64,000 nt of DNA. Source: Bacillus salipaludis. GTDB lineage: Bacteria; Bacillota; Bacilli; Bacillales_B; DSM-18226. Within the stretch, counting starts at the first letter, position 1. Each line of letters starts with the position of its first letter. The stretch covers positions 310,001 to 374,000 of the forward strand of contig NZ_SMYO01000003.1 of NCBI RefSeq assembly GCF_004358205.1, given 5' to 3'. The notes below the pieces were generated by a model, which was not told where the DNA came from, did not search any database, and saw only the letters and a program-made list of their open reading frames with translations. The position numbers were made by a program, and so were the translations under genes. This document shows positions 1,780 to 57,214 of the stretch, piece after piece.

Positions 1780-1965
1780 TAGCCTTCCACACCTCCCTAT
1801 CCTCGTAGGTTATTTGGCGTACATAAATAGGCAGGTTTCCTGACTCATGTTCATCGCTTCCTATGTCTTCCCATCATTACGACAGTGACATTCTATAGGT
1901 TGCTCCCATTTACAGTGGCGGGACCGCGTTGGTTTTGCACCAAACTTCCCTTTTAAGCTTAAATT
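1780..1965 (-). promoter_or_regulatory. Cobalamin riboswitch
   Basis: Reading the minus strand, the leader contains the conserved cobalamin-aptamer pieces in order: GGTGCAAAACC stem, GCGGTCCCGCCACTGTAA (B12-box GCCACTG), a variable arm, and GAGTCAGGAAACCTGCC near the 3' side. It precedes an ABC importer and a terminator hairpin, the standard transcription-attenuation arrangement in Bacillales. Boundaries are approximate. Confidence 0.93.
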
Positions 1966-2054
1966 CTTTTTAAAAATTTTAGCACCTATTTTTTAAATTT
2001 ATTTTTATGACTACTTCATTATATAGGAAAAGAAAATAATTTGTATATGTTTTT

Positions 2055-2142: not shown

Positions 2143-2610
2143 TTATTCAATTGTTCTGCAAAGGTTGGCCATTTCAATCGCAGCTGATGCTGCGTCCCAG
2201 CCTTTATTGCCTGCTTTTGTTCCAGCACGTTCAATCGCCTGTTCAATTGAATCAGTTGTCAATACGCCAAAAATAACTGGAATCCCTGTTTTTAAATTGA
2301 GAGCAGAAACGCCCTTTGCCACTTCGTTACACACATAATCAAAATGTGGTGTGGAGCCGCGAATAACCGTACCAAGGGTGATAACGGCATCGTACTTTTT
2401 GCTTTCCGCCATTTTTTGCGCAATTAACGGGATTTCAAACGCACCTGGTACCCAGGCAACATCCACGTCTGTTTCACTGACACCATGTCTTTTTAAAGCA
2501 TCCTGTGCCCCACCTAATAATTTACTTGTAATGAATTCATTAAAACGACCTACTACGATTCCTACTTTTAATCCTGATCCAACTAAATTACCTTCAAAAA
2601 TATGTCCCAT
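2143..2610 (-). CDS. ribH: 6,7-dimethyl-8-ribityllumazine synthase
   Basis: Penultimate enzyme of riboflavin synthesis: condenses 5-amino-6-ribitylaminouracil with 3,4-dihydroxy-2-butanone 4-phosphate. The 155-residue length is normal for the family. Visible signatures are [12 protein letters not shown] near the N-terminus, [32 protein letters not shown] (substrate-binding and catalytic-His region) and [17 protein letters not shown]. It is the last gene of the rib operon, 38 bp after ribBA, under the FMN riboswitch. In Bacillus this enzyme assembles into a 60-mer shell around riboflavin synthase; RibE is encoded in the same operon. Confidence 0.97.
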
Positions 2611-2648
2611 GCTTCTTCCTCCATTTGTTTCCTTAATTTTTTTCTTCC

Positions 2649-3842
2649 TTAATAATGTAAAAGATGCCCCAATTTGTCGTGCTTTGTGCGAAGGTAGTTC
2701 GCATTCTCTTTTCTCATTTCCATTTGTAGCGGAACACGCTCGACCACCTCAATGTCATAACCTTTTAAGCCTTTAATTTTTCTAGGGTTATTCGTTAATA
2801 AACGCATTTGTTTAACCCCGAGGTCCTTCAATATTTGTGCGCCTATCCCGTATTCTCTGAGATCCGCTCCAAAACCAAGTTTTTCATTTGCTTCAACGGT
2901 ATCGTATCCCTCTTCTTGAAGCTTATACGCTCTGAGTTTATTCAATAAACCAATACCGCGGCCTTCCTGACGCATGTATAAAAGGATGCCGTTACCTTCC
3001 TTTTCAATTTGGCTCAAAGCCGCATGAAGCTGAGGACCGCAATCACACCGGTAGGAACCAAAAACATCCCCGGTTAAACACTCGGAATGAACTCTGACAA
3101 GAATCGGCTTCTCAGGATCAATTTCCCCTTTTACTAATGCCACATGCTCTTTACTATCAACAAGATTGGAATACCCAACTGCTTTAAAATTACCAAATTC
3201 AGTTGGCAGATTAATTTCCACTTCACGTTTAACAAGCTGATCCTTTTTATTGCGATATTCAATCAGGTCTTTTATCGTAATTAATTTTACATTTAACGAA
3301 TCCGCAATTTTTCGTAGTTGAGGAACGCGTGCCATTGTGCCGTCCTCGTTCATAATCTCACAAATCACACCTGCCGGCTTAGCTCCACATAATGTTGCTA
3401 AATCAACTGCCGCCTCCGTATGCCCCGTTCTTCTTAAAACACCGCCCTTTTTTGCGACTAACGGGAAAACGTGCCCCGGCCTTTTAAAATCTGAAGGTTT
3501 AGATTCTGGGTCGAGCAAACTTAAAACAGTTGCGGAACGCTCGAACGCAGATATCCCTGTCGTTGAAAATTTATGGTCGATACTTACAGTAAAAGCCGTA
3601 CCATGTGAATCCGTATTAACCGATACCATCGGGAACAAATCAAGTTTTTGCGCCAATTCCTCTTGAATTGGCACGCATATTAGTCCTCGTCCATGGGTAG
3701 CCATTAAATTTATTACATCTGGTGTTGCTTTCTCCGCTAGGGCGATAAAGTCACCTTCATTTTCCCGATCCTCGTCATCACAGACAATGACAACTTTTCC
3801 TTGTTTTAAATCTTCTAAAGCCTCTTCTATTGTATTAAACAT
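2649..3842 (-). CDS. ribBA: Bifunctional 3,4-dihydroxy-2-butanone 4-phosphate synthase / GTP cyclohydrolase II
   Basis: Supplies both starting branches of riboflavin: ribulose 5-phosphate to the four-carbon unit (N-terminal half) and GTP to the diaminopyrimidine (C-terminal half). Residues about 1-200 carry [19 protein letters not shown] and [12 protein letters not shown] of DHBP synthase; residues about 205-397 carry [22 protein letters not shown] (zinc cysteines) and RQEGRGIGL of GTP cyclohydrolase II. The 397-residue length matches the fused enzyme of Bacillus. It lies 23 bp after ribE and is controlled by the FMN riboswitch. A separate, unfused GTP cyclohydrolase II gene occurs at 55.7-56.5 kb. 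Confidence 0.97.
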
Positions 3843-3865
3843 TTTGCATCACTCCTTTCTATTAT

Positions 3866-4525
3866 TTAAGCAAATCCGTTATCAGCTAAAAATTGAGCTG
3901 TTATGCCGGATGCTCCTTTTTTCCCTTGATCACTTTTTATACCAGTTATAAAATGACCCACATATTTTCCAATCATATCGCATTCTAAATTGACAATATC
4001 GCCTGAACCTTTTAGACCTAAGATCGATTCAGATAATGTATGGGGGATGAGTGAAATCGTAAAAGTATGCTCTGTCTTGCCAAAGACGGTAAGACTTGTA
4101 CCATCAATTGCAACTGAGCCTTTTAAAATAATGTAGTCTAATATCTCTTGATTGGCTTCAATTTCATAATAGATGGCATTTTCAAATGCTTTTTTACTTT
4201 TAATCACCCCGGTCCCATCAATATGTCCGGATACGAAATGACCCCCAAATCTTCCCCCGGCCGCCATCGCCCTTTCCAGGTTCACCTTAGAGCCGCGCTT
4301 AACTGAATTTAAACTGGATGCCTTCACTGTTTCCGGCATAACATCTACGGTAAACTGTTTTCCGGTAAAGGAAGTGACTGTTAAACATACACCGTTGACA
4401 GCGATACTGTCACCAAGATGAACATCATCAAGAATTTTCTTCGCCTCAACGGTAAGAACGAAAGAATCTCCCGTTCGCTGAATATTTGAAACTAAACCAA
4501 TTTCCTCAATAATTCCAGTAAACAT
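3866..4525 (-). CDS. ribE: Riboflavin synthase alpha subunit
   Basis: Dismutates two dimethylribityllumazine molecules to riboflavin and the pyrimidine precursor. The 219-residue protein begins MFTGIIEEIG, the near-invariant N-terminus, and shows two lumazine-binding repeats, the first with SIAVNGVCLTV and the second with SVAIDGTSLTV, plus GGHFVSGHIDGTG. The ATG at 4525 was chosen over an upstream in-frame ATG because GAGGAG precedes it and because of the conserved N-terminus. It starts 10 bp after the ribD stop. The C-terminal tail runs about 10-15 residues past the second repeat. Confidence 0.97.
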   Translation of the reverse strand: MFTGIIEEIGLVSNIQRTGDSFVLTVEAKKILDDVHLGDSIAVNGVCLTVTSFTGKQFTVDVMPETVKASSLNSVKRGSKVNLERAMAAGGRFGGHFVSGHIDGTGVIKSKKAFENAIYYEIEANQEILDYIILKGSVAIDGTSLTVFGKTEHTFTISLIPHTLSESILGLKGSGDIVNLECDMIGKYVGHFITGIKSDQGKKGASGITAQFLADNGFA

Positions 4526-4535
4526 AGTGTTCTCC

Positions 4536-5618
4536 TCACTTAGGTTCCGCAATTATCCGGATATCATTGCCGATGCGGCTCACTTCTTTTATTTTTAAAG
4601 AAACAACCTCTTCCATTGTTTCAAAGCCTTCACCGCCAAAAGAAGCTGGAGCCATTTTACCACCGATCAATTTAGGTGCAATATAGGTGATCACTTGTTG
4701 AAATGCACGTTCCTTTAAAAAGCTTCCATGCACCTCCGCGCCTCCTTCAACAAATAATGATGAAATGCACATTTCTCCTATTACTTTTAACATTTCACGG
4801 ATGATTATTTGCTTTTCCGGCAATTTAATCAGCTTAATCCCTAAATCATGGTATTCTTTTTCCCTTTTCTCATCAATGCCAGAGCAGGTAACAATCCATG
4901 TCGGCGCCTGACCATCCGTTACAACGTTTGCAGTTAGAGGAGTTCGAAGATTCGTATCAAGGATAATTCGAATTGGATTTTGGCCGCCTGAAGGCAACCT
5001 TGTTGTCAAGCTGGGATTATCCTTAATGACCGTATTGACTCCTACTAGAATGGCGTCATGCTGATGGCGGAATACATGAACGTCCTTCCTTGCTTCCTCA
5101 CCGGTAATCCATTTGCTTTCGCCTATTGCGGTGGCTGTTTTTCCGTCCAAACTGTTGGCGGTTTTTAATGTTACGTATGGCAAACCGGTACTAATGTTGT
5201 AAAAAAACATCCTATTCAGCTCACGTGCCTCTTCCTGAAGCAGCCCTACCTCCACCTCAATCCCGGCATTTCTTATTCTTGCAATACCTTTGCCTGCCAC
5301 CTGGGGATTAGGGTCAGTAGTTGCAACAAATACTTTCTTAATTCCTGTACGAATGACTAAATCCGAGCATGGTGGTGTTTTACCAAAATGGCTGCAGGGT
5401 TCTAGGGTGACATAGATGGTTGCATCCTTTGCTTTTTCGCCAGCCATTTCAATGGCATGGACCTCTGCATGGGGCTCGCCCGCTTTTAAATGGGCACCCA
5501 TGCCAACGATTTGATTGTCCTTTACCACTACTGCTCCAACTACTGGATTGGGAGCAGTCTGTCCCAAAGTGCTTTTTGCCAAATTCAATGCTAGGCTCAT
5601 GTAGTCTGTATCATTCAT
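4536..5618 (-). CDS. ribD: Bifunctional pyrimidine deaminase / reductase RibD
   Basis: Second and third steps after GTP cyclohydrolase II: deaminates the diaminopyrimidine (N-terminal zinc domain) and reduces the ribosyl side chain (C-terminal NADPH domain). Zinc ligands are visible in HAEVHAIEMAG and TLEPCSHFGKTPPC; the reductase half has SLDGKTATAIGESKWITGEE and a late FVEGGAEVHGSFL. The 360-residue length is normal. First gene of the rib operon, directly behind the FMN leader terminator. A paralogue lies at 54.6-55.7 kb. Confidence 0.97.
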   Translation of the reverse strand: MNDTDYMSLALNLAKSTLGQTAPNPVVGAVVVKDNQIVGMGAHLKAGEPHAEVHAIEMAGEKAKDATIYVTLEPCSHFGKTPPCSDLVIRTGIKKVFVATTDPNPQVAGKGIARIRNAGIEVEVGLLQEEARELNRMFFYNISTGLPYVTLKTANSLDGKTATAIGESKWITGEEARKDVHVFRHQHDAILVGVNTVIKDNPSLTTRLPSGGQNPIRIILDTNLRTPLTANVVTDGQAPTWIVTCSGIDEKREKEYHDLGIKLIKLPEKQIIIREMLKVIGEMCISSLFVEGGAEVHGSFLKERAFQQVITYIAPKLIGGKMAPASFGGEGFETMEEVVSLKIKEVSRIGNDIRIIAEPK

Positions 5619-5677: not shown

Positions 5678-5751
5678 CTAATAAAGGCAATAGGAAATTG
5701 AGGCTTAAAAAAGAGGGTTTTTTAACCAATTTTTAATCCTGCTTATTTTTT

Positions 5752-5886
5752 CCTTCTCCCATCCAGACTTTAACTGTCGGCCCTGGAGTTTCACCAGATC
5801 CACCGTTTAACTAATGTTAACCGGGTCACGGACTAAGAAGCAATGCTTCATCACCGCCGGTTAGGAATTTCACCTGACCCCGAAGG
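5752..5886 (-). promoter_or_regulatory. FMN riboswitch (RFN element)
   Basis: The minus strand reads CCTTCGGGGTCAGG, then CCGGCGGTGATGAAGC, TAGTCCGTGACCC, CCGACAGTTAAAGTCTGG and GATGGGAGAAGG, the full ordered set of RFN consensus blocks. It sits in front of ribD with a terminator in between, so it should repress the operon when FMN is high. No such element occurs ahead of the second ribA-ribD cluster. Confidence 0.96.
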
Positions 5887-5998
5887 AACTATTTAATTTT
5901 AAATTATTTTAAGTATATCGAATTCAATCCAGAAAGGGAAATGATTTGTTCATAATTTATAGGGAATTTTCGACTTTCCTTTTTTTACGATAATTTTG

Positions 5999-10584: not shown

Positions 10585-11340
10585 TTATTTTCTCAGTGCC
10601 CATTTTCGAATTGCTTTTGCCACTCCATCTTCATTGTTGGCTGCGGTAACCCATTCAGCAGTATCTTTCACGATTTCCTGTGCATTGCCCATCGCCACAC
10701 CAAGACCCGCTTCTTTAATCATCGCTATATCATTTAAACTGTCCCCGCAAGCCATGACATTCTCCATATCAATTCCAAGACGTTCACAAACCATTTTTAA
10801 TCCCTTGGCCTTATTTATACCAAGCGGATTGACTTCAATATTCTTAAGAGTTGAATTGCTCAGCTCAAATTCACCTTTGGATTGAAGCTCTTTATTAATG
10901 ATTTCTCGAATTTCATCATCATCAATATCAAATCCAAATTTTAACCACTCAAAGCTATGCAGGTCCTCCGGCATATCATTAAACCAGTTTCGTTCCGTGC
11001 TGATTGCCCAAAACTTCGTATTATGCTGCTTTGACAATTCCCACATCCATTGGATTAGGTCAGCCTTCATTAGATTTCTTTCGACTAATTCACGCTTTTC
11101 GTCCCAGACCTCACTCCCATTTACAGTTACAAGAAAGGATGTGAGTTCAAGTGAATCTGCATGCTCCCTGCATGTTCGTAAGGAGCGTCCTGTACTTAGG
11201 ACAACATAGATTCCCTTTGCCTGCGCTTCTTTTATAGCCTCACGGTTTCCCACTGAAACTTCTCCCTTATCATTTAAAAGGGTTCCATCCATATCAAGGG
11301 CAATAAGCTTGATATTAGGTTTATTTATGAAATTATCCAT
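10585..11340 (-). CDS. Cof-type HAD-IIB phosphatase
   Basis: 251-residue haloacid-dehalogenase phosphatase. Motif I is ALDMDGTLL (nucleophile Asp), motif II STGR, the Lys region is INKAKGL, and motif IV is GDSLNDIAM. The C2B cap inserted between motifs II and III marks subclass IIB (Cof/YkrA/YwtE-like). Such enzymes act on sugar phosphates, phosphoglycolate or, in Bacillus, the riboflavin intermediate 5-amino-6-ribitylaminouracil phosphate; specificity cannot be assigned. Monocistronic between a terminator and the cold-shock gene. Confidence 0.92.
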   Translation of the reverse strand: MDNFINKPNIKLIALDMDGTLLNDKGEVSVGNREAIKEAQAKGIYVVLSTGRSLRTCREHADSLELTSFLVTVNGSEVWDEKRELVERNLMKADLIQWMWELSKQHNTKFWAISTERNWFNDMPEDLHSFEWLKFGFDIDDDEIREIINKELQSKGEFELSNSTLKNIEVNPLGINKAKGLKMVCERLGIDMENVMACGDSLNDIAMIKEAGLGVAMGNAQEIVKDTAEWVTAANNEDGVAKAIRKWALRK

Positions 11341-50230: not shown

Positions 50231-50259
50231 GGCATCCTCTGAGCAAGGATGCCTTTTTT
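50231..50259 (+). terminator. Terminator after the radical SAM gene
   Basis: GGCATCCT/AGGATGCC hairpin with a 7-base loop and T6. Confidence 0.9.
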
Positions 50260-50905
50260 AATGAAGGAATTGATCATTTCGTTTATCAATATATAAGGAA
50301 CCGTCCTTTTGTAATTCCGCATAAAAGACTTCAGAAAGAATTGTTCCGGCTCGTGTTAATTGCTCATCTACCCAATTTCTGTCTATATTTAATTGCTGTA
50401 AATTCTCTTCAATTACCTTGCCATCTGTAATTATCTGCATTGGTATCGGTGCTTGTTGTTGTTGTTTGACCTGAAATGGCAGTTGTTCCTGCTTCAATGG
50501 CTGTTTCGCTTCCTTAAGCATTACCGATAATTCCCCACTTGTTTCGAAAATGGCATAATCAACATCTTGAAAAGAAAATACATCTTTTTTACGAAGAAGC
50601 ATCTGTAACTGTTTTATATCCAAGCTCGATTTTTTTAAAGCCTTTTCTAATACCTTCCCTTGTTTTATGAGAATGATCGGTTCCCCTTCAACTATCTTTC
50701 GAAACTTTCTAAACTTTAGATCAACAATACCTACCAATACCGTTAACCCGGTCCAAGTTAAAAGGCTGACAATTCCTGTTGAAACTTTAATACTTGAATC
50801 AATGGTCATAGAACCGGCCACCGCACCAATCGAGATACCTGTAATGTAATTAAAAAAGGTCATTTGTGAAATCTGTTTTCTACCCATCAAACGTGTTAAT
50901 AGAAT
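50258..50905 (-). pseudogene. DUF421 (YetF-like) gene lacking its first membrane helix
   Basis: DUF421 proteins begin with a long hydrophobic helix ending in R-L-M-G-[KR]-[KR]-Q-I. Here the homologous frame can be read only from ILLTRLMGRKQISQ; upstream it meets a stop codon inside the truncated gerC gene. The rest is intact: a second helix region FNYITGISIGAVAGS and two soluble subdomains with EPIILIKQGKVLE, about 210 residues. A protein starting at the internal ATG may be made but would be missing its first helix. The break coincides with the 3' truncation of the upstream gene, so one deletion explains both. DUF421 genes often accompany ger and spoVA clusters. Confidence 0.75.
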
Positions 50906-51572
50906 CTTCGGGAGTTAACATTAGTTTAATATGAGATTTATCCATGAGCCCAACTTTATTGATTTCAAAAATTTCTTTTTTAGCCTCAATGATGGGAAGA
51001 AATGGGTCCACTCCTTTTTCAATTAATTTTCTTTTCATTTCAAAAATAAATTGTGAGATTATGTAGGGAGTTTCCGATCCGTCTTTTCCAAGAGACAAAA
51101 ATAAAGAATTAGAAGGAATCGTTTCTGATTTAGGTCTTACCTTTAAAACGGCCTCCGCAGTTGGTTTCCCGATTGCAGCCCATGCAATTTCCTGAATATC
51201 CCTTCTTCTGGTAAGCCAATAATGAATACCTTTATTCCCTCTTTGTTTTAGTACCTTTTCTCCATATACAACCAGCTTTGCATGGCTGAAATCAATCTCT
51301 CGATCCACCTTTGTTTTAATAATTCGTACAGCCTCCCCCATAGAATTTGCTTCTTCAGTAACAATCACATATTCACTTGGTGAATCTTTACTTATAGCAG
51401 GAATCGCAAATTTAAGGCTGACAAGGTATTTTTTTGAACTGTTTTTCGCAAGATCAACACCAATGCTGACAACAAAAAATCGTTTATCAATATCTTTAAA
51501 ACCACCTCCGCAAAGAAGCAAGACGACGATGAAAATAATCACTATTTGGATCTTTTTTAAAGAACTCTTCAA
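50880..51572 (-). pseudogene. GerAC-family lipoprotein gene truncated at its 3' end
   Basis: 230 residues; full-length members are about 350 or more (354 in the intact copy at 35.7 kb). The lipobox LLLCGGG, KDIDKRFFVVSIGVD and EANSMGEAVRIIKTKVDREI are sound. It stops at LTPEDSINTFDG, close to the start of the third GerAC domain; the sequence then merges with the middle of a DUF421 helix. TTG start at 51572, overlapping the preceding remnant (TTGA), with AAGGAGG upstream. Confidence 0.75.
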
Positions 51573-52186
51573 GCTGTTTTCCTCCTTGCCCATAAGAAGA
51601 AAATGACGATTGTTACAACTTCAAAACAAAAGCGAATTTGCAGCCAGTAAACAGTAAACTTATTTAATAGAACCGTATTTAAATACTGCACCCCAGCAAC
51701 GGCACAAACAATAAATATCGAAAGCACAATCCATTCCTTTTTCTTGCTTCCTTTATTCTTGAAAGTTCCCTTTAATAATTCAAAGGACGCATGCCAGTGA
51801 ACCGATATGCTTACAAGGGTAATACTCATATAAAACATTAAAAACAGAAAGATTACCCGTTCAATTGGGCTGTATACCAACCGCAGGCAATCCGCAGTTG
51901 AAATCCACGGATATAGAAATTCATTCGCCCCATCAGACCCTTGAAACCCGATGGGAATTAAGAATGTAGTAAAAAGGTTAAAAAGGCCTAGAAAAAAGAC
52001 GGCAATAAAATTCCAGATTTTCAATTTCCCTTTAATCACACGATTAAAAATCATCAGATTTGTATACCCGGAAAAAACATACGTTGCTGCCGCAAGTGCT
52101 TTTAAATTTGGAAATTCAAACAGATGAGTTCCAACCTCGAACATAGAGTCCCAGCTTAATTGGTCACTTGTTAGGGCTTTAAAACC
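51569..52186 (-). pseudogene. GerAB-family gene lacking its 5' half
   Basis: From about FKALTSDQLSWDSMFEVG the frame corresponds to residue 170 onward of GerAB (compare the intact gene at 34.6 kb) and runs to its natural end, keeping about five of ten helices. The first half is gone and the frame continues upstream, out of phase, into gerAA sequence. A 191-residue product could start at the internal ATG at 52144 but could not form a receptor subunit. Confidence 0.75.
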
Positions 52187-52842
52187 GTAACGAGCATAAC
52201 AGGTATAAGTGAACGATTACTTTTTTTGATCGCATCCAAAAGCTGTTCGCCCGTTTGAAACATGTTAATGTCTACAGATGTGAGAAATTGCTTAATACGA
52301 TTTAATACATCTGGGTCAGCGAATTTTTTATCATGCAGAATCATTACCTTAGTTTTGGAGATTTTCCCCACTTCAGTTGTCTCAATTGTTAAAGTAGTTT
52401 CGGGATATCGCTGACGAATTAGTCCCAAGTTTGTTGGCAAGCTTTCACTAAAACCTGATTGTGGTCCTTGAATAGTGGTCTCAACGGTTGTATCTAATAC
52501 AGAACTATTCCGATCCACCTTGCTATCGAGCATGAAAATGGCATCCTGATAGAAAAGAACTGTCACTCCCCTGATTAACTCATCAAGTGTTTTTTGCTCA
52601 TTTTCAAACGCCTTTATCTTTGGCTGTGATTGAAGATACGCTAAAAAACTATCAGGAGTAAGTATTTCAAAAAATGGTTTTATCAAATTGTTCTGAAGGA
52701 TATTTTTATCACTAATCGATTTAATATAAAAAGTTTCAATGTATTTATCCTTAGTATGAAGTTCTTTAAAAACCACATCTTCTGCCTGCTGAATTTTGCT
52801 TCTTAATGATTCTTTAATCGTTTCGATTCGATTAAACGTCAT
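52171..52842 (-). pseudogene. GerAA-family gene reduced to its soluble N-terminal domain
   Basis: 223 residues, against 498 in the intact copy. It ends RSLIPVMLVT plus four odd residues and a TAA, precisely where intact GerAA continues into TERPDRV and the membrane helices. The following DNA is mid-gerAB, so about 1.3 kb (some 270 codons of A and 170 of B) appears deleted. N-terminal sequence is otherwise normal, with KTKVMILHDKKFADPDVLNR. Confidence 0.75.
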
Positions 52843-54027: not shown

Positions 54028-54069
54028 AACGGTCAAAAGGGAACGGTGTCCAGTTCCCTTTTGACCGTT
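54028..54069. terminator. Bidirectional terminator between corA and the rib-like operon
   Basis: AACGGTCAAAAGGGAAC / GTTCCCTTTTGACCGTT, 17-bp perfect stem with an 8-base loop; it reaches into the last codon of the HAD gene. AT-rich flanks rather than long T runs. Confidence 0.8.
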
Positions 54070-54637
54070 AAATTGACTTGAAAACAATCTCCTGAAGTTC
54101 TGTCCAATTAACGATTCTTGGAAGCTTCAAATGTCGATTATAGGATTGATCTTTTATATAAACCCTTAATGTTTCGTTCAAAAGTGTATTTAAAACCTCT
54201 GGTTTATCATCAAAATAATAATCAAGTTTTAATCCTTTAATGATTTCAACTTTTTCATTGTCTTGCATCCCGTAGAAAAACCGATCATTTTGAACAGGAA
54301 ATCCTCTTCCCTTTAACCATTCCCTTGTACGTTCTCCATGTTCTTTTGGTCTTGAAGTAATATAGTATATTTCATGTCCTTGCTTTTCTAACTCTTGTAA
54401 TGTTTCCACCGCCTGTGGGAATGGAGGACATTCGGTGTAATAAATTTCCTCTAATGAATCGTTCCATAGTTTTTTCCCTTGTTCATCCGTTAATCCAAAC
54501 GGTTCATGAATTTCCACTCTATTTAATCCATGGAACACATTGAGTGGAACATTTTGATTCAACTTTTTATTATAAAGATGAAAGGCATGGCCCCTTAGAT
54601 CGATTAATGTATCGTCAATATCAAAACCAATTTTCAT
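54068..54637 (-). CDS. HAD-superfamily 5'-nucleotidase-like phosphatase (NT5C/YqfW-like)
   Basis: 189 residues of the NT5C-type HAD group: motif I GFDIDDTLID (Asp nucleophile pair), motif II ITSRPKEHG, motif IV DYYFDDKPEVLN. It starts 11 bp after the second ribD and ends at a terminator, so it is the last gene of the DUF421-ribA-ribD operon. Family members dephosphorylate nucleotides and small phosphates. In this context a sugar-phosphate pyrimidine (5-amino-6-ribitylaminouracil 5'-phosphate) is the plausible substrate, which RibD makes and riboflavin synthesis must dephosphorylate; this is inference. Confidence 0.88.
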   Translation of the reverse strand: MKIGFDIDDTLIDLRGHAFHLYNKKLNQNVPLNVFHGLNRVEIHEPFGLTDEQGKKLWNDSLEEIYYTECPPFPQAVETLQELEKQGHEIYYITSRPKEHGERTREWLKGRGFPVQNDRFFYGMQDNEKVEIIKGLKLDYYFDDKPEVLNTLLNETLRVYIKDQSYNRHLKLPRIVNWTELQEIVFKSI

Positions 54638-54648
54638 TTAAAAATCCC

Positions 54649-55734
54649 TCATTTGTAAATCGGGTATCCTACGAATTTAAAATCTTTGCCAATTTTTATA
54701 AAAGAGGTGTCCTTTAGCTCGACAGCATCTCTCATTTTATCTATCCCCTCTCCTTCTAGAAAGGTAGGTGCCTGCCCTCCGCCAACTAATTTGGGAGCAA
54801 AATATAAAATTACCTTATCAATTAATTTATTTTCTAGGAATGATGCATTAATCGAACCTCCCCCTTCAATTAATAAAGAAGAGACAAGGTTTTCGCCCAA
54901 TATTTTTACTACTTCCTTAGGGTCTACAAAGTCTGCAATTGGAAAAATCTTTATTCCTAATGACTTCAGTGATTTCCACTTTTCCTTATCGTAGTTCATG
55001 CTCGTGAATATCCATGTTTCCGCTTTTTTATCCTTCACTACCTTCGATTCTAAAGGGATTTTTAATGTGGAATCCATAATCACTCTAATAGGATTCCTTC
55101 CATTCGGAATGCGTGTTGTCAACTCTGGATTATCTTTAATGACTGTGTTAACTCCCACTAAAATAGCCATATTTTCATTTCTAAGTTGATGGACATCTAC
55201 TCTGGCTTCTTCAGATGTAATCCATTTGCTGTCGGATGTACGAGTGGCAATTTTACCGTCAAGCGAAGTCCCAGACTTTAATGTAACAAAAGGTTTTTTC
55301 TCCACAATAAATTTGTTAAATACCTCATTCATTTGTTGGGATTCTTCTTGACAAACCCCTATAATTACTTCAATTCCGGCATCCTTTAGTATTTTGACAC
55401 CATTACCTGAAACAACCGGATTCGGGTCAAGAGTTGCTATCACAACTTTATTAATGCCCGCTTCAACAATTGCAACTGCACATGGCCCTGTTCTTCCATA
55501 ATGAGAACAAGGTTCAAGTGTTACATAAATGGTGCCCCCTTTAGCCTTATCACCAGCCATACGAAGAGCATGAATCTCAGCATGCGGCTCTCCCGCTTTT
55601 AAATGAGCACCGATCCCTACCACTCTGTTCTCATTTACAATTACAGCCCCAACTAGAGGGTTCGGATCTGTCTGACCTTTCATTGCACGAGCATTATTCA
55701 AAGCCAAATCCATAAAAAATTCATGACTAGTCAT
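54649..55734 (-). CDS. ribD: Second RibD: pyrimidine deaminase / reductase
   Basis: 361 residues, full-length paralogue of the ribD at 4.5 kb. Deaminase zinc site HAEIHALRMAG and TLEPCSHYGRTGPC intact; reductase with SLDGKIATRTSDSKWITSEE and IEGGGSINASFLE. All catalytic motifs are kept, so it should be active. ATG at 55734 overlaps the ribA stop by 8 bp; GAAGGGA upstream. It lies with ribA but without ribE, ribB or ribH genes, and lacks an FMN riboswitch. Duplication for a purpose other than bulk riboflavin is likely. Confidence 0.95.
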   Translation of the reverse strand: MTSHEFFMDLALNNARAMKGQTDPNPLVGAVIVNENRVVGIGAHLKAGEPHAEIHALRMAGDKAKGGTIYVTLEPCSHYGRTGPCAVAIVEAGINKVVIATLDPNPVVSGNGVKILKDAGIEVIIGVCQEESQQMNEVFNKFIVEKKPFVTLKSGTSLDGKIATRTSDSKWITSEEARVDVHQLRNENMAILVGVNTVIKDNPELTTRIPNGRNPIRVIMDSTLKIPLESKVVKDKKAETWIFTSMNYDKEKWKSLKSLGIKIFPIADFVDPKEVVKILGENLVSSLLIEGGGSINASFLENKLIDKVILYFAPKLVGGGQAPTFLEGEGIDKMRDAVELKDTSFIKIGKDFKFVGYPIYK

Positions 55735-56482
55735 TACAACAAGTCCCTTCATCTTCCAAATGACCTGACTTATTAATTTTAGTCTTCAAATACTTCTCGT
55801 TATATTCAGAAATATCCCCCCATAAAGGTTCTCTGCCTGAAACCACTAAGCCAGCGTTTTTTAATGCTTGAAGTTTTTTTGGATTGTTTGTAATTAACGT
55901 TACTGGCTTGGACCTTAATGCTTTTAATACTTGTATTGAATCGCTATAATTTCTGGAATCATCCACAAAACCTAAAGCTTGATTAGCTTCAACTGTATCG
56001 TAGTCATTTTCTTGAAGGATATAGGCCATTGCCTTGCTGAATAATCCAATTCCACGTCCTTCATGGTTAGCTAAATAAAATAAGGCTCCATTACCATGTT
56101 CCACAATCATTTTCATGGATTGTTTTAATTGAAACCCACAATCACATCTTTTACTTCCAAAAATATCACCTGTATGACAAATCGAATGCATTCGAATAAT
56201 CGCATCATCTGCATATTCGAAATCTCCATAAGCCAAAACACTTGATTGCTGAAATTCTGCTAAATTAACTGAAGATAATTTTTCAATGATCCGTTCAAAA
56301 TCCTCTGTTACTTCGTCACAATTTAACCAGCAATACCACTTGAAAATTACCGTTTCGCCATATAAGTTAACAGGGAGGCGTATCGGTCCGACTAAATATA
56401 TTGCCCCTTTTTCTGTTTTAATTAATTGAATTTTATCTCCTAAAACCGAAAGAACTTTAGTGTCTAATTTGGCTTGTTTCAT
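55727..56482 (-). CDS. ribA: Stand-alone GTP cyclohydrolase II
   Basis: 251 residues, longer at the N-terminus than the ~200-residue E. coli enzyme by about 50. The catalytic block from residue about 96 has RMHSICHTGDIFGSKRCDCG with the three zinc Cys, NHEGRGIGLF, then YDTVEANQALGF and VTLITNNPKKLQALKNAG. The Arg-Gln pair of ordinary RibA (RQEGRGIGL) is Asn-His here. It makes the 2,5-diaminopyrimidine from GTP for RibD. Starts 24 bp after a DUF421 gene. Distinct in sequence from the ribBA domain at 2.6 kb. Confidence 0.93.
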   Translation of the reverse strand: MKQAKLDTKVLSVLGDKIQLIKTEKGAIYLVGPIRLPVNLYGETVIFKWYCWLNCDEVTEDFERIIEKLSSVNLAEFQQSSVLAYGDFEYADDAIIRMHSICHTGDIFGSKRCDCGFQLKQSMKMIVEHGNGALFYLANHEGRGIGLFSKAMAYILQENDYDTVEANQALGFVDDSRNYSDSIQVLKALRSKPVTLITNNPKKLQALKNAGLVVSGREPLWGDISEYNEKYLKTKINKSGHLEDEGTCCND

Positions 56483-56506
56483 TATAAATGAATCCCCCTT
56501 ACGTTT

Positions 56507-57214
56507 TTAATTATCTTCCCCAGGATTGTAGTAATAAGGATTATTTTTATTACTTTTAATTTCATTATTATCAATAAATAATTTTCCATTGTCTAAAAAA
56601 GTGGCTAGCATAATGTTTTCTACCTTTTCACCCAATTTTTTAACCTCGTTCATTAGCCAACCTTGTTCAAGTTTTAGATATTTTAAATTATGATAAATAA
56701 TTTGCCCGTCCATGATCAGTGGAATGGGAATATATTCTTTCTTTATTGTTAGCTTTAAATCATTAGGTTGAACTGGTCGATATTTGGACTTGGGAATCAC
56801 GCTAATACTTCCTGTTTCTTCCATCACAGCAAGAGCAATATTCCTTGTGTCGGTGTAGCCTTTTACTCTTAAGTGTGACAATAATTCATTTATCGGCATA
56901 CGCACCTTTTTAAGTCCTTTTCGATCAATATCACCGTTTCGAATCAAGACTGTTGGACTTTCATATAAAATCCATCTTAATTTATTATGTATGGATAATC
57001 GGATAAAGATCTTATATAAAATGACTGTGATTACACCATAAATGATGGCTTTTCCTAGATTACTATCCTCAACGGGCGTACTAATTATATTCGTTAGGAC
57101 AAAAATATACAATAAATCGAAAGTGTGCATTTGGGAAACTGCCTTTTTTCCTGTCACCCTTAAAAACAAATATCCTGCCAATAAAACAATTAATGTACGG
57201 TATACGATTTCCAA
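56507..57214 (-). CDS. DUF421 (YetF-like) membrane protein, first gene of the ribA-ribD operon
   Basis: 235 residues with two or three N-terminal helices (VYRTLIVLLAGYLFLRVTGK, then TFDLLYIFVLTNIIST) and two soluble YetF subdomains with SPTVLIRNGDIDRKGLKKVR and PLIMDGQIIYHNLKYLKLEQ. Complete, unlike the copy at 50.3 kb. TTG start at 57214 behind AGGGGAG. DUF421 proteins are of unknown function and are frequent in spore membranes; the link with riboflavin-type enzymes is unexplained. Confidence 0.88.
   Translation of the reverse strand: MEIVYRTLIVLLAGYLFLRVTGKKAVSQMHTFDLLYIFVLTNIISTPVEDSNLGKAIIYGVITVILYKIFIRLSIHNKLRWILYESPTVLIRNGDIDRKGLKKVRMPINELLSHLRVKGYTDTRNIALAVMEETGSISVIPKSKYRPVQPNDLKLTIKKEYIPIPLIMDGQIIYHNLKYLKLEQGWLMNEVKKLGEKVENIMLATFLDNGKLFIDNNEIKSNKNNPYYYNPGEDN

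Follow-up and report, generated by a model that had tools for sequence, protein, structure and literature searches.

A riboswitch-free ribA2-ribD2-HAD cassette as a putative relocated GTP branch of riboflavin synthesis in Bacillus salipaludis and its relatives

Why would a bacterium with a complete, riboswitch-controlled riboflavin operon carry a second set of the early pathway genes? The question is raised by a 64,000-nucleotide stretch of the Bacillus salipaludis genome (NCBI RefSeq assembly GCF_004358205.1, contig NZ_SMYO01000003.1, positions 310,001 to 374,000; hereafter the window), in which a run of four genes encodes a DUF421 membrane protein, a stand-alone guanosine triphosphate (GTP) cyclohydrolase II (RibA2), a second RibD (RibD2) and a HAD phosphatase. 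A first-pass annotation had read this run as a dedicated extra supply of 5-amino-6-ribitylaminouracil. Our analysis points, with a probability of roughly 0.8, to another answer: ribA2-ribD2-HAD would be the GTP-to-pyrimidine half of riboflavin synthesis, organized as an operon of its own without a riboswitch, and in relatives it would have displaced the canonical genes. The basis of this reading is the observed gene content and order, the missing riboswitch, the reciprocal loss of genes in relatives, the conserved active-site residues and purifying selection.

Probable displacement of the canonical genes in relatives

The two types of RibD were counted in 80 related genomes, with RibD2 defined as at least 69% identity to the RibD2 of the window (33 genomes) and canonical RibD as 40-55% (46 genomes). 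Only RibD2 was found in 32 genomes and only canonical RibD in 45; one (G001, the nearest genome, with 52% of sampled words) had both types and two (G044 and G071) had neither. The riboswitch operon of all 32 RibD2-only genomes was ribE-ribB(A)-ribH behind a flavin mononucleotide (FMN) riboswitch, and no RibD-like match at E < 0.01 was detected in these operons (0/32). An even draw across the order gave 299 genomes, of which 53 had a RibD2-type gene (62-98% identity, 16 family labels); the 62% cut was our own choice, and a few genes at 56-59% fall outside it. A second RibD at E <= 1e-50 was lacking in 47 of the 53 and present in G001, G091, G103, G168, G287 and G309. The RibD2-only genomes of this draw spanned 14 family labels.

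The RibA domain of RibBA was absent from 13 of the 33 RibD2 genomes of the relatives, wrecked in 10 and full in 10. In the ten RibBX-like genomes the QEGRGIGL active-site loop was broken by a deletion and the C terminus was gone, with the zinc cysteines and RibB retained. G020 has canonical RibD and RibB only, plus a RibA2-HAD pair, and in the fragmented assembly G044 RibB occurs by itself and RibA2 was not found. RibA2-type genes were the sole intact GTP cyclohydrolase II detected in 24 genomes (13 + 10 + G020); all 24 keep RibB and RibH, and each operon retrieved has RibE. Of the 23 RibD2 genomes in which the RibA domain of RibBA is lost or wrecked, 12 have no RibA2 other than that of the cassette. 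G031 carries RibA fragments, and at two loci (L142 and L143) the RibA2 alignment crosses a stop near the C terminus, where the open frames are 244 and 253 residues long. As there is no other RibD or intact GTP cyclohydrolase II in these genomes, RibD2 and the RibA2-type enzymes must, judged from gene content, feed riboflavin there. A dedicated extra supply does not describe the cassette in general, since RibD2 was the sole RibD in 32 of 33 RibD2 relatives and the RibA half was lost or wrecked in 23 of the 33, leaving RibA2-type genes as the only intact ones.

Loss of RibA from RibBA together with a stand-alone ribA is already known. In Shewanella and Aeromonas, according to the RibBX study, RibB is kept beside an inactive RibA half, and ribA is present separately outside the main operon (PMC10012899). 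The RibBA of the relatives is alike in that RibB is kept with an inactive RibA half and a separate ribA supplies the activity. There, ribD stays in the main operon of Aeromonas and ribA stands alone, whereas the cassette holds ribA, ribD and the phosphatase gene together; also unlike RibBX, the RibA half was wholly lost in 13 cassette genomes. The ratio of non-synonymous to synonymous substitution rates (dN/dS) of the RibBX-like ribBA genes (L091-L099, L102) was about 0.07-0.14 in three pairs despite the lost loop and C terminus, so the decayed RibA half may have a non-catalytic role.

A scan of genome contigs with RibA2 gave 78 loci. The order RibA2-RibD-HAD was found in Neobacillus, Peribacillus, Psychrobacillus, Chryseomicrobium, Ureibacillus, Paenibacillus and others. 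Cohnella and Paenibacillus alvei have RibA2-RibD2 but no HAD with it, and at further loci RibA2 stands by itself. We tallied 44 loci, each run lying on one strand: 35 with RibA2-RibD-HAD, one (G001) with DUF421 in addition, five with RibA2-RibD, two with RibA2-HAD and one with RibD by itself. Recurrence of the three-gene core across many genera shows that the run exceeds chance. This core is ribA2-ribD2-HAD, and DUF421 was added in the lineage of the window. The four-gene order that the first-pass annotation proposed to look for in other Bacillaceae was thus recovered in part, the core in many genera and the full order with DUF421 only in the lineage of the window (G001). Its suggestion that such a dedicated, FMN-insensitive supply would be new in a spore former is not supported, the three-gene order being common among spore formers. 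In G001 all four genes were 96-98% identical to those of the window, and the canonical operon lies about 50 kb from the cassette.

A RibD tree of 95 rows was built, omitting loci L178-L207, identical sequences, rows with stops and matches with less than 90% query coverage. The canonical group comprised 25 rows (91/86 at its node) and the window-type group 60 rows (97/86). A third, relocated RibD clade of seven rows (100/100) was found beside RibA2 in all cases, with HAD near in six of the seven, and three distant rows fell outside all groups. Because rows labelled Paenibacillaceae, Bacillaceae and Caryophanaceae intermix in the window-type group, the tree suggests transfer between families.

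The two gene sets in the window

The features of both sets are listed in Table 1. Open reading frame coordinates and family models agreed with the layout first described, four minus-strand genes separated by 24 bp (DUF421/ribA2), an 8-bp overlap (ribA2/ribD2, with the ribD2 start at 55734) and 11 bp (ribD2/HAD). RibA2 scored 148.8 bits on PF00925 (cut-off 23.3) and 188.1 on the subfamily model NF001591 (cut-off 148), and failed the equivalog model TIGR00505 (179.4 bits, cut-off 205.85). We aligned 83 of 98 RibA2-family hits, after removal of rows with stops, with 55% identity or less, or identical to others. The zinc cysteines 102/113/115 were invariant, as were the equivalents of Escherichia coli Tyr105, Asp126, Arg128, Glu92, Arg94 and Lys154, residues with catalytic roles in GTP cyclohydrolase II. 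The family departs from E. coli RibA at E53 (Ile), L55 (His) and Q91 (His). RibD2 has both the deaminase and the reductase domain (TIGR00326, 405 bits, cut-off 156.35), and its closest solved structure is the RibD 2b3z (E 1.6e-114). Terminator-like sites numbered three in the 64-kb stretch, including the hairpin that closes the run, as compared to 2.7 expected from shuffles, and a promoter scan of the window gave 12 sites, as compared to 16.8 expected.

Table 1. Features of the ribA2-ribD2-HAD run and of the canonical rib operon (window coordinates)
Feature	Position	Strand	Remarks
DUF421 (YetF-like) membrane protein, first gene of the run	56507..57214	-	PF04239 116 bits, cut-off 23.6; YetF_N under cut-off
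ribA2, stand-alone GTP cyclohydrolase II, 251 residues	55727..56482	-	PF00925 and NF001591 over cut-off
ribD2, full-length bifunctional deaminase/reductase	54649..55752 (or internal ATG start 55734)	-	TIGR00326
HAD phosphatase, NT5C family	54068..54637	-	PF06941 53 bits, cut-off 24.8
Terminator-like hairpin closing the run	54028..54069	-	17 pairs, 8 G-C; directly 3' of the HAD gene
FMN riboswitch of the canonical operon	5747..5891	-	RF00050 114.8 bits, cut-off 66.2
ribD1, canonical RibD	4536..5618	-	groups with the canonical RibD clade
ribE, riboflavin synthase	3866..4552	-	97% identity to G001
ribBA, RibA domain intact	2649..3842	-	in contrast to relatives in which that domain is lost
ribH, lumazine synthase	2143..2610	-	canonical operon

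The complete rib operon with its FMN riboswitch, reported by the first-pass annotation elsewhere in the window, was located as ribD-ribE-ribBA-ribH at 5618-2143 on the minus strand, and no second FMN riboswitch above the gathering score was found in the 64 kb, nor any near the cassette. The canonical Bacillus operon carries out the same reactions, and the match between RibD2 and the canonical RibD of the nearest genome is 52%; the cassette differs in holding the GTP branch only, with a stand-alone RibA, no riboswitch and a phosphatase gene added. Both sets are under purifying selection, with dN/dS between the window and G001 of 0.06 for RibA2, 0.10 for RibD2, 0.28 for HAD and 0.15 for DUF421, and of 0.10 for RibD1, 0.23 for RibE, 0.03 for RibBA and 0.02 for RibH. 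The window may represent, at its two-copy stage, a displacement that many relatives have completed; a lasting division of labour between the two sets is equally compatible with these data.

Synonymous divergence (dS) from G001 was about 0.06-0.11 for RibD1, RibE and the cassette genes, as compared to 0.31-0.35 for RibBA and RibH. This jump inside one operon (window 2143-4552) is the pattern expected of a recombination breakpoint between ribE and ribBA. Just past ribH a cobalamin riboswitch (window 1813-2004, minus strand) was found upstream of a substrate-binding-protein-like open reading frame (679-1719).

HAD phosphatase, regulation and neighbouring genes

The HAD enzyme belongs with the early riboflavin genes, as had been proposed from the window. 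Close copies (at least 61% identity) were found in 31 of the 80 relatives and all 31 adjoin rib genes: 27 in a RibA2-RibD2-HAD run, no more than about 0.5 kb behind RibD2, two beside RibA2 only, and two (G012 and G028) directly after ribH inside the canonical operon. HAD at E <= 1e-30 was present in 34 of the 299 order-wide genomes, and RibA2 and/or RibD adjoin it in 33, with a monooxygenase gene intervening in three; five genomes (G001, G027, G051, G061 and G070) are in both samples. The catalytic HAD-motif residues D6, D8, T10, T94, K129, D143 and D144 were invariant in 33 aligned sequences, and the predicted model had a mean predicted local distance difference test (pLDDT) score of 89. Many of the 80 genomes carry distant NT5C relatives (21-35% identity) at other sites, and a PDB sequence search gave a weak match only (2obb, E 0.0097).

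YcsE/YwtE/YitU and YigB/YbjI are known phosphatases of this riboflavin step, of Cof type. The cassette HAD shares with them the proposed reaction and the HAD superfamily, but is of the NT5C family (PF06941) and lies in rib clusters. It had no match to the YcsE-type model NF045966, and a YcsE-family search at E <= 1e-45 found none in the 80 genomes and likewise none in 14 controls, which makes the negative uninformative. A Cof-type HAD at window 10585-11340 scored 124.6 on NF045966, under the cut-off of 220. By its context, the NT5C-type HAD is a strong candidate for a dedicated 5-amino-6-(5-phosphoribitylamino)uracil phosphatase. A 2025 study describes the dedicated phosphatase as yet to be identified and the reported ones as non-specific HADs, and a histidine-family phosphatase is proposed there for Aquifex (PMC12051542), with the same proposed reaction as the cassette HAD and another fold.

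We found no FMN riboswitch in 55 (39 + 16) cassette or RibA2 loci, so that the absence of this element, first noted in the window, extends to all of them. Nor was there any recurrent Rfam element upstream of the cassettes in the 55 loci; a lysine riboswitch, a Bacillaceae-1 RNA and a T-box were each matched once. Going by the missing riboswitch, cassette expression is likely FMN-independent. An HxlR gene lies divergently beside one cassette type. In 23 of 26 chosen upstreams an ACTA block was found within 45 nt of the start (22 at 24-26 nt; the rows are related), as compared to a mean of 6.0 and a maximum of 12 of 26 in shuffles; 13 of 39 upstreams, which lie behind a monooxygenase or DUF421 gene or are divergent, were omitted from this set. 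The block may be a promoter plus ribosome site. In G079 the Bacillaceae-1 RNA follows RibD2 at a distance of about 150 bp (L149, 4484-4551).

A conserved fifth partner, which the first-pass annotation had proposed to search for, did not emerge: upstream neighbours of the cassette change from genus to genus, and the sole recurrent extra, a PF01494 flavin adenine dinucleotide (FAD) monooxygenase, is not in the window. Of 109 loci, 18 have it next to RibA2 or RibD (L026-L029, L032, L033, L059, L140-L145, L147, L153, L212-L214; several genera); four places among them were fetched twice, which leaves 14 distinct places. An HxlR regulator gene accompanied it in 13 of the 18 loci and a major facilitator superfamily (MFS) transporter gene in 10, and its best PDB relative was 8uiu (E 6e-50). 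In seven Paenibacillus loci (L037, L042, L043, L046, L048, L050, L051) RibA2 lies near a helix-turn-helix (HTH)-cupin regulator, an esterase-like gene and others, and RibD2 was missing in five of the seven. We take these neighbourhoods to resemble quinone-detoxification clusters.

DUF421 orthologues precede RibA2 directly in G001 (96% identity, dN/dS 0.15) and in another species at a RibA2-only locus, that of G003 (L152; 87% identity, dN/dS 0.07), where RibD2 and HAD are missing; a distant DUF421 (31%) follows RibA2 in L018. The DUF421-RibA2 pairing is common to two species but rare. DUF421 as a general functional partner was rejected, being present in one of 44 cassette loci, and it is kept as a lineage-specific neighbour. 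Contrary to what had been stated, the family is not without known function: in one study the DUF421 proteins YetF and YdfS matter for spore resistance in B. subtilis (PMC10126465). These spore proteins share PF04239 with the DUF421 of the run, which at the loci examined lies directly upstream of RibA2 only in the lineage of the window and in G003. At window 50258-52842 (minus strand) GerA-like and GerAC-like germination-receptor genes look shortened, the GerA match reaching only profile positions 2-222 of 466, and a second DUF421 gene follows.

Proposed pathway, alternatives and meaning

In the pathway that we propose, RibA2 would open GTP, RibD2 would deaminate and then reduce the product, and HAD would strip the 5'-phosphate to give 5-amino-6-ribitylaminouracil, which RibB, RibH and RibE, under control of the FMN riboswitch, would convert to riboflavin. 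The three activities, the HAD substrate and FMN-independent expression are predictions from sequence and gene context. The cassette would have displaced canonical ribD in many relatives, and the RibA domain of ribBA in many of those; FMN feedback would therefore act on the late half only, and the species of the window would retain both sets.

Several points weigh against this reading. Where RibD2 genomes have no intact RibA domain in RibBA, 11 of 23 (G004, G010, G011, G013, G017, G019, G021, G035, G039, G041, G043) carry a second stand-alone RibA2 elsewhere, so that the cassette is not always the single source of GTP cyclohydrolase II, and full RibBA persists in 10 RibD2 genomes. HAD was missing from six of the 33 RibD2 genomes and stands alone in one order-wide genome (G234, locus L208); the HAD-rib link is strong yet not absolute, and HAD is not universal. 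The genome counts overstate independence, the genomes being related. The FMN riboswitch search in relatives scored 35 first-look candidates per genome, and the order-wide draw at most six per genome. A missing FMN riboswitch leaves another control possible, and in the window itself, where the canonical operon is complete, the contribution of the second set is unproven.

A redundant duplicate kept for dosage, with HAD as an unrelated nucleotidase, would agree with both sets being intact and under purifying selection in the window and G001. We consider it doubtful: RibD2 forms a separate clade (60 rows) and did not arise as a recent copy, the RibD2 of the window matches the two RibD of G001 at 98% and 52%, and HAD tracks rib genes almost throughout the order-wide draw and even enters the canonical operon in two relatives. 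The presence of both sets in the window, together with the monooxygenase gene beside RibA2 or RibD at some loci, would also fit a dedicated second pathway beside normal riboflavin synthesis, with another product such as a deazaflavin, a precursor of mucosal-associated invariant T (MAIT) cell ligands or an oxidised pyrimidine. This is unlikely, because the cassette must feed riboflavin in the genomes with no other RibD, and the run in the window has no monooxygenase gene. The deazaflavin role put forward at first is unsupported, as CofH (FO-synthase subunit) at E <= 0.001 was found in none of nine relatives (a control search matched 11 of 14 named genomes, with three over the cut-off).

Highly improbable, finally, is a spore-linked operon with DUF421 as the main actor and the rib genes serving sporulation. 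The described spore role of DUF421 proteins (PMC10126465) speaks for it, and so does the DUF421-RibA2 pair of G003, whose dS to the window is about 0.9-1.3; against it stand the rarity of DUF421 at cassette loci and the other upstream neighbours, which vary by genus.

The preferred reading remains that of a relocated GTP branch of riboflavin synthesis. A wider form of it, in which a transferable cassette moved this whole branch beyond the FMN riboswitch across Bacillaceae, Caryophanaceae and Paenibacillaceae, displaced canonical ribD and drove decay of the RibA half of RibBA, and in which HAD is the long-sought dedicated phosphatase in these bacteria, we regard as evenly balanced between right and wrong. 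No description of a joint ribA-ribD-phosphatase relocation in Bacillota, of ribD displacement or of this phosphatase candidate was found in a search that left most subscription journals outside.

Alone among the riboflavin reactions, the phosphatase step has no dedicated enzyme on which there is agreement; the cassette HAD offers a specific, cheap-to-test candidate with unusually tight linkage. The two-copy state of the window may capture one gene set in the course of displacing another. For many spore formers, the reading implies that FMN feedback would be confined to the late half of the pathway; this would alter predictions of riboflavin output, of the leak of the reactive pyrimidine and of the action of FMN-riboswitch drugs.

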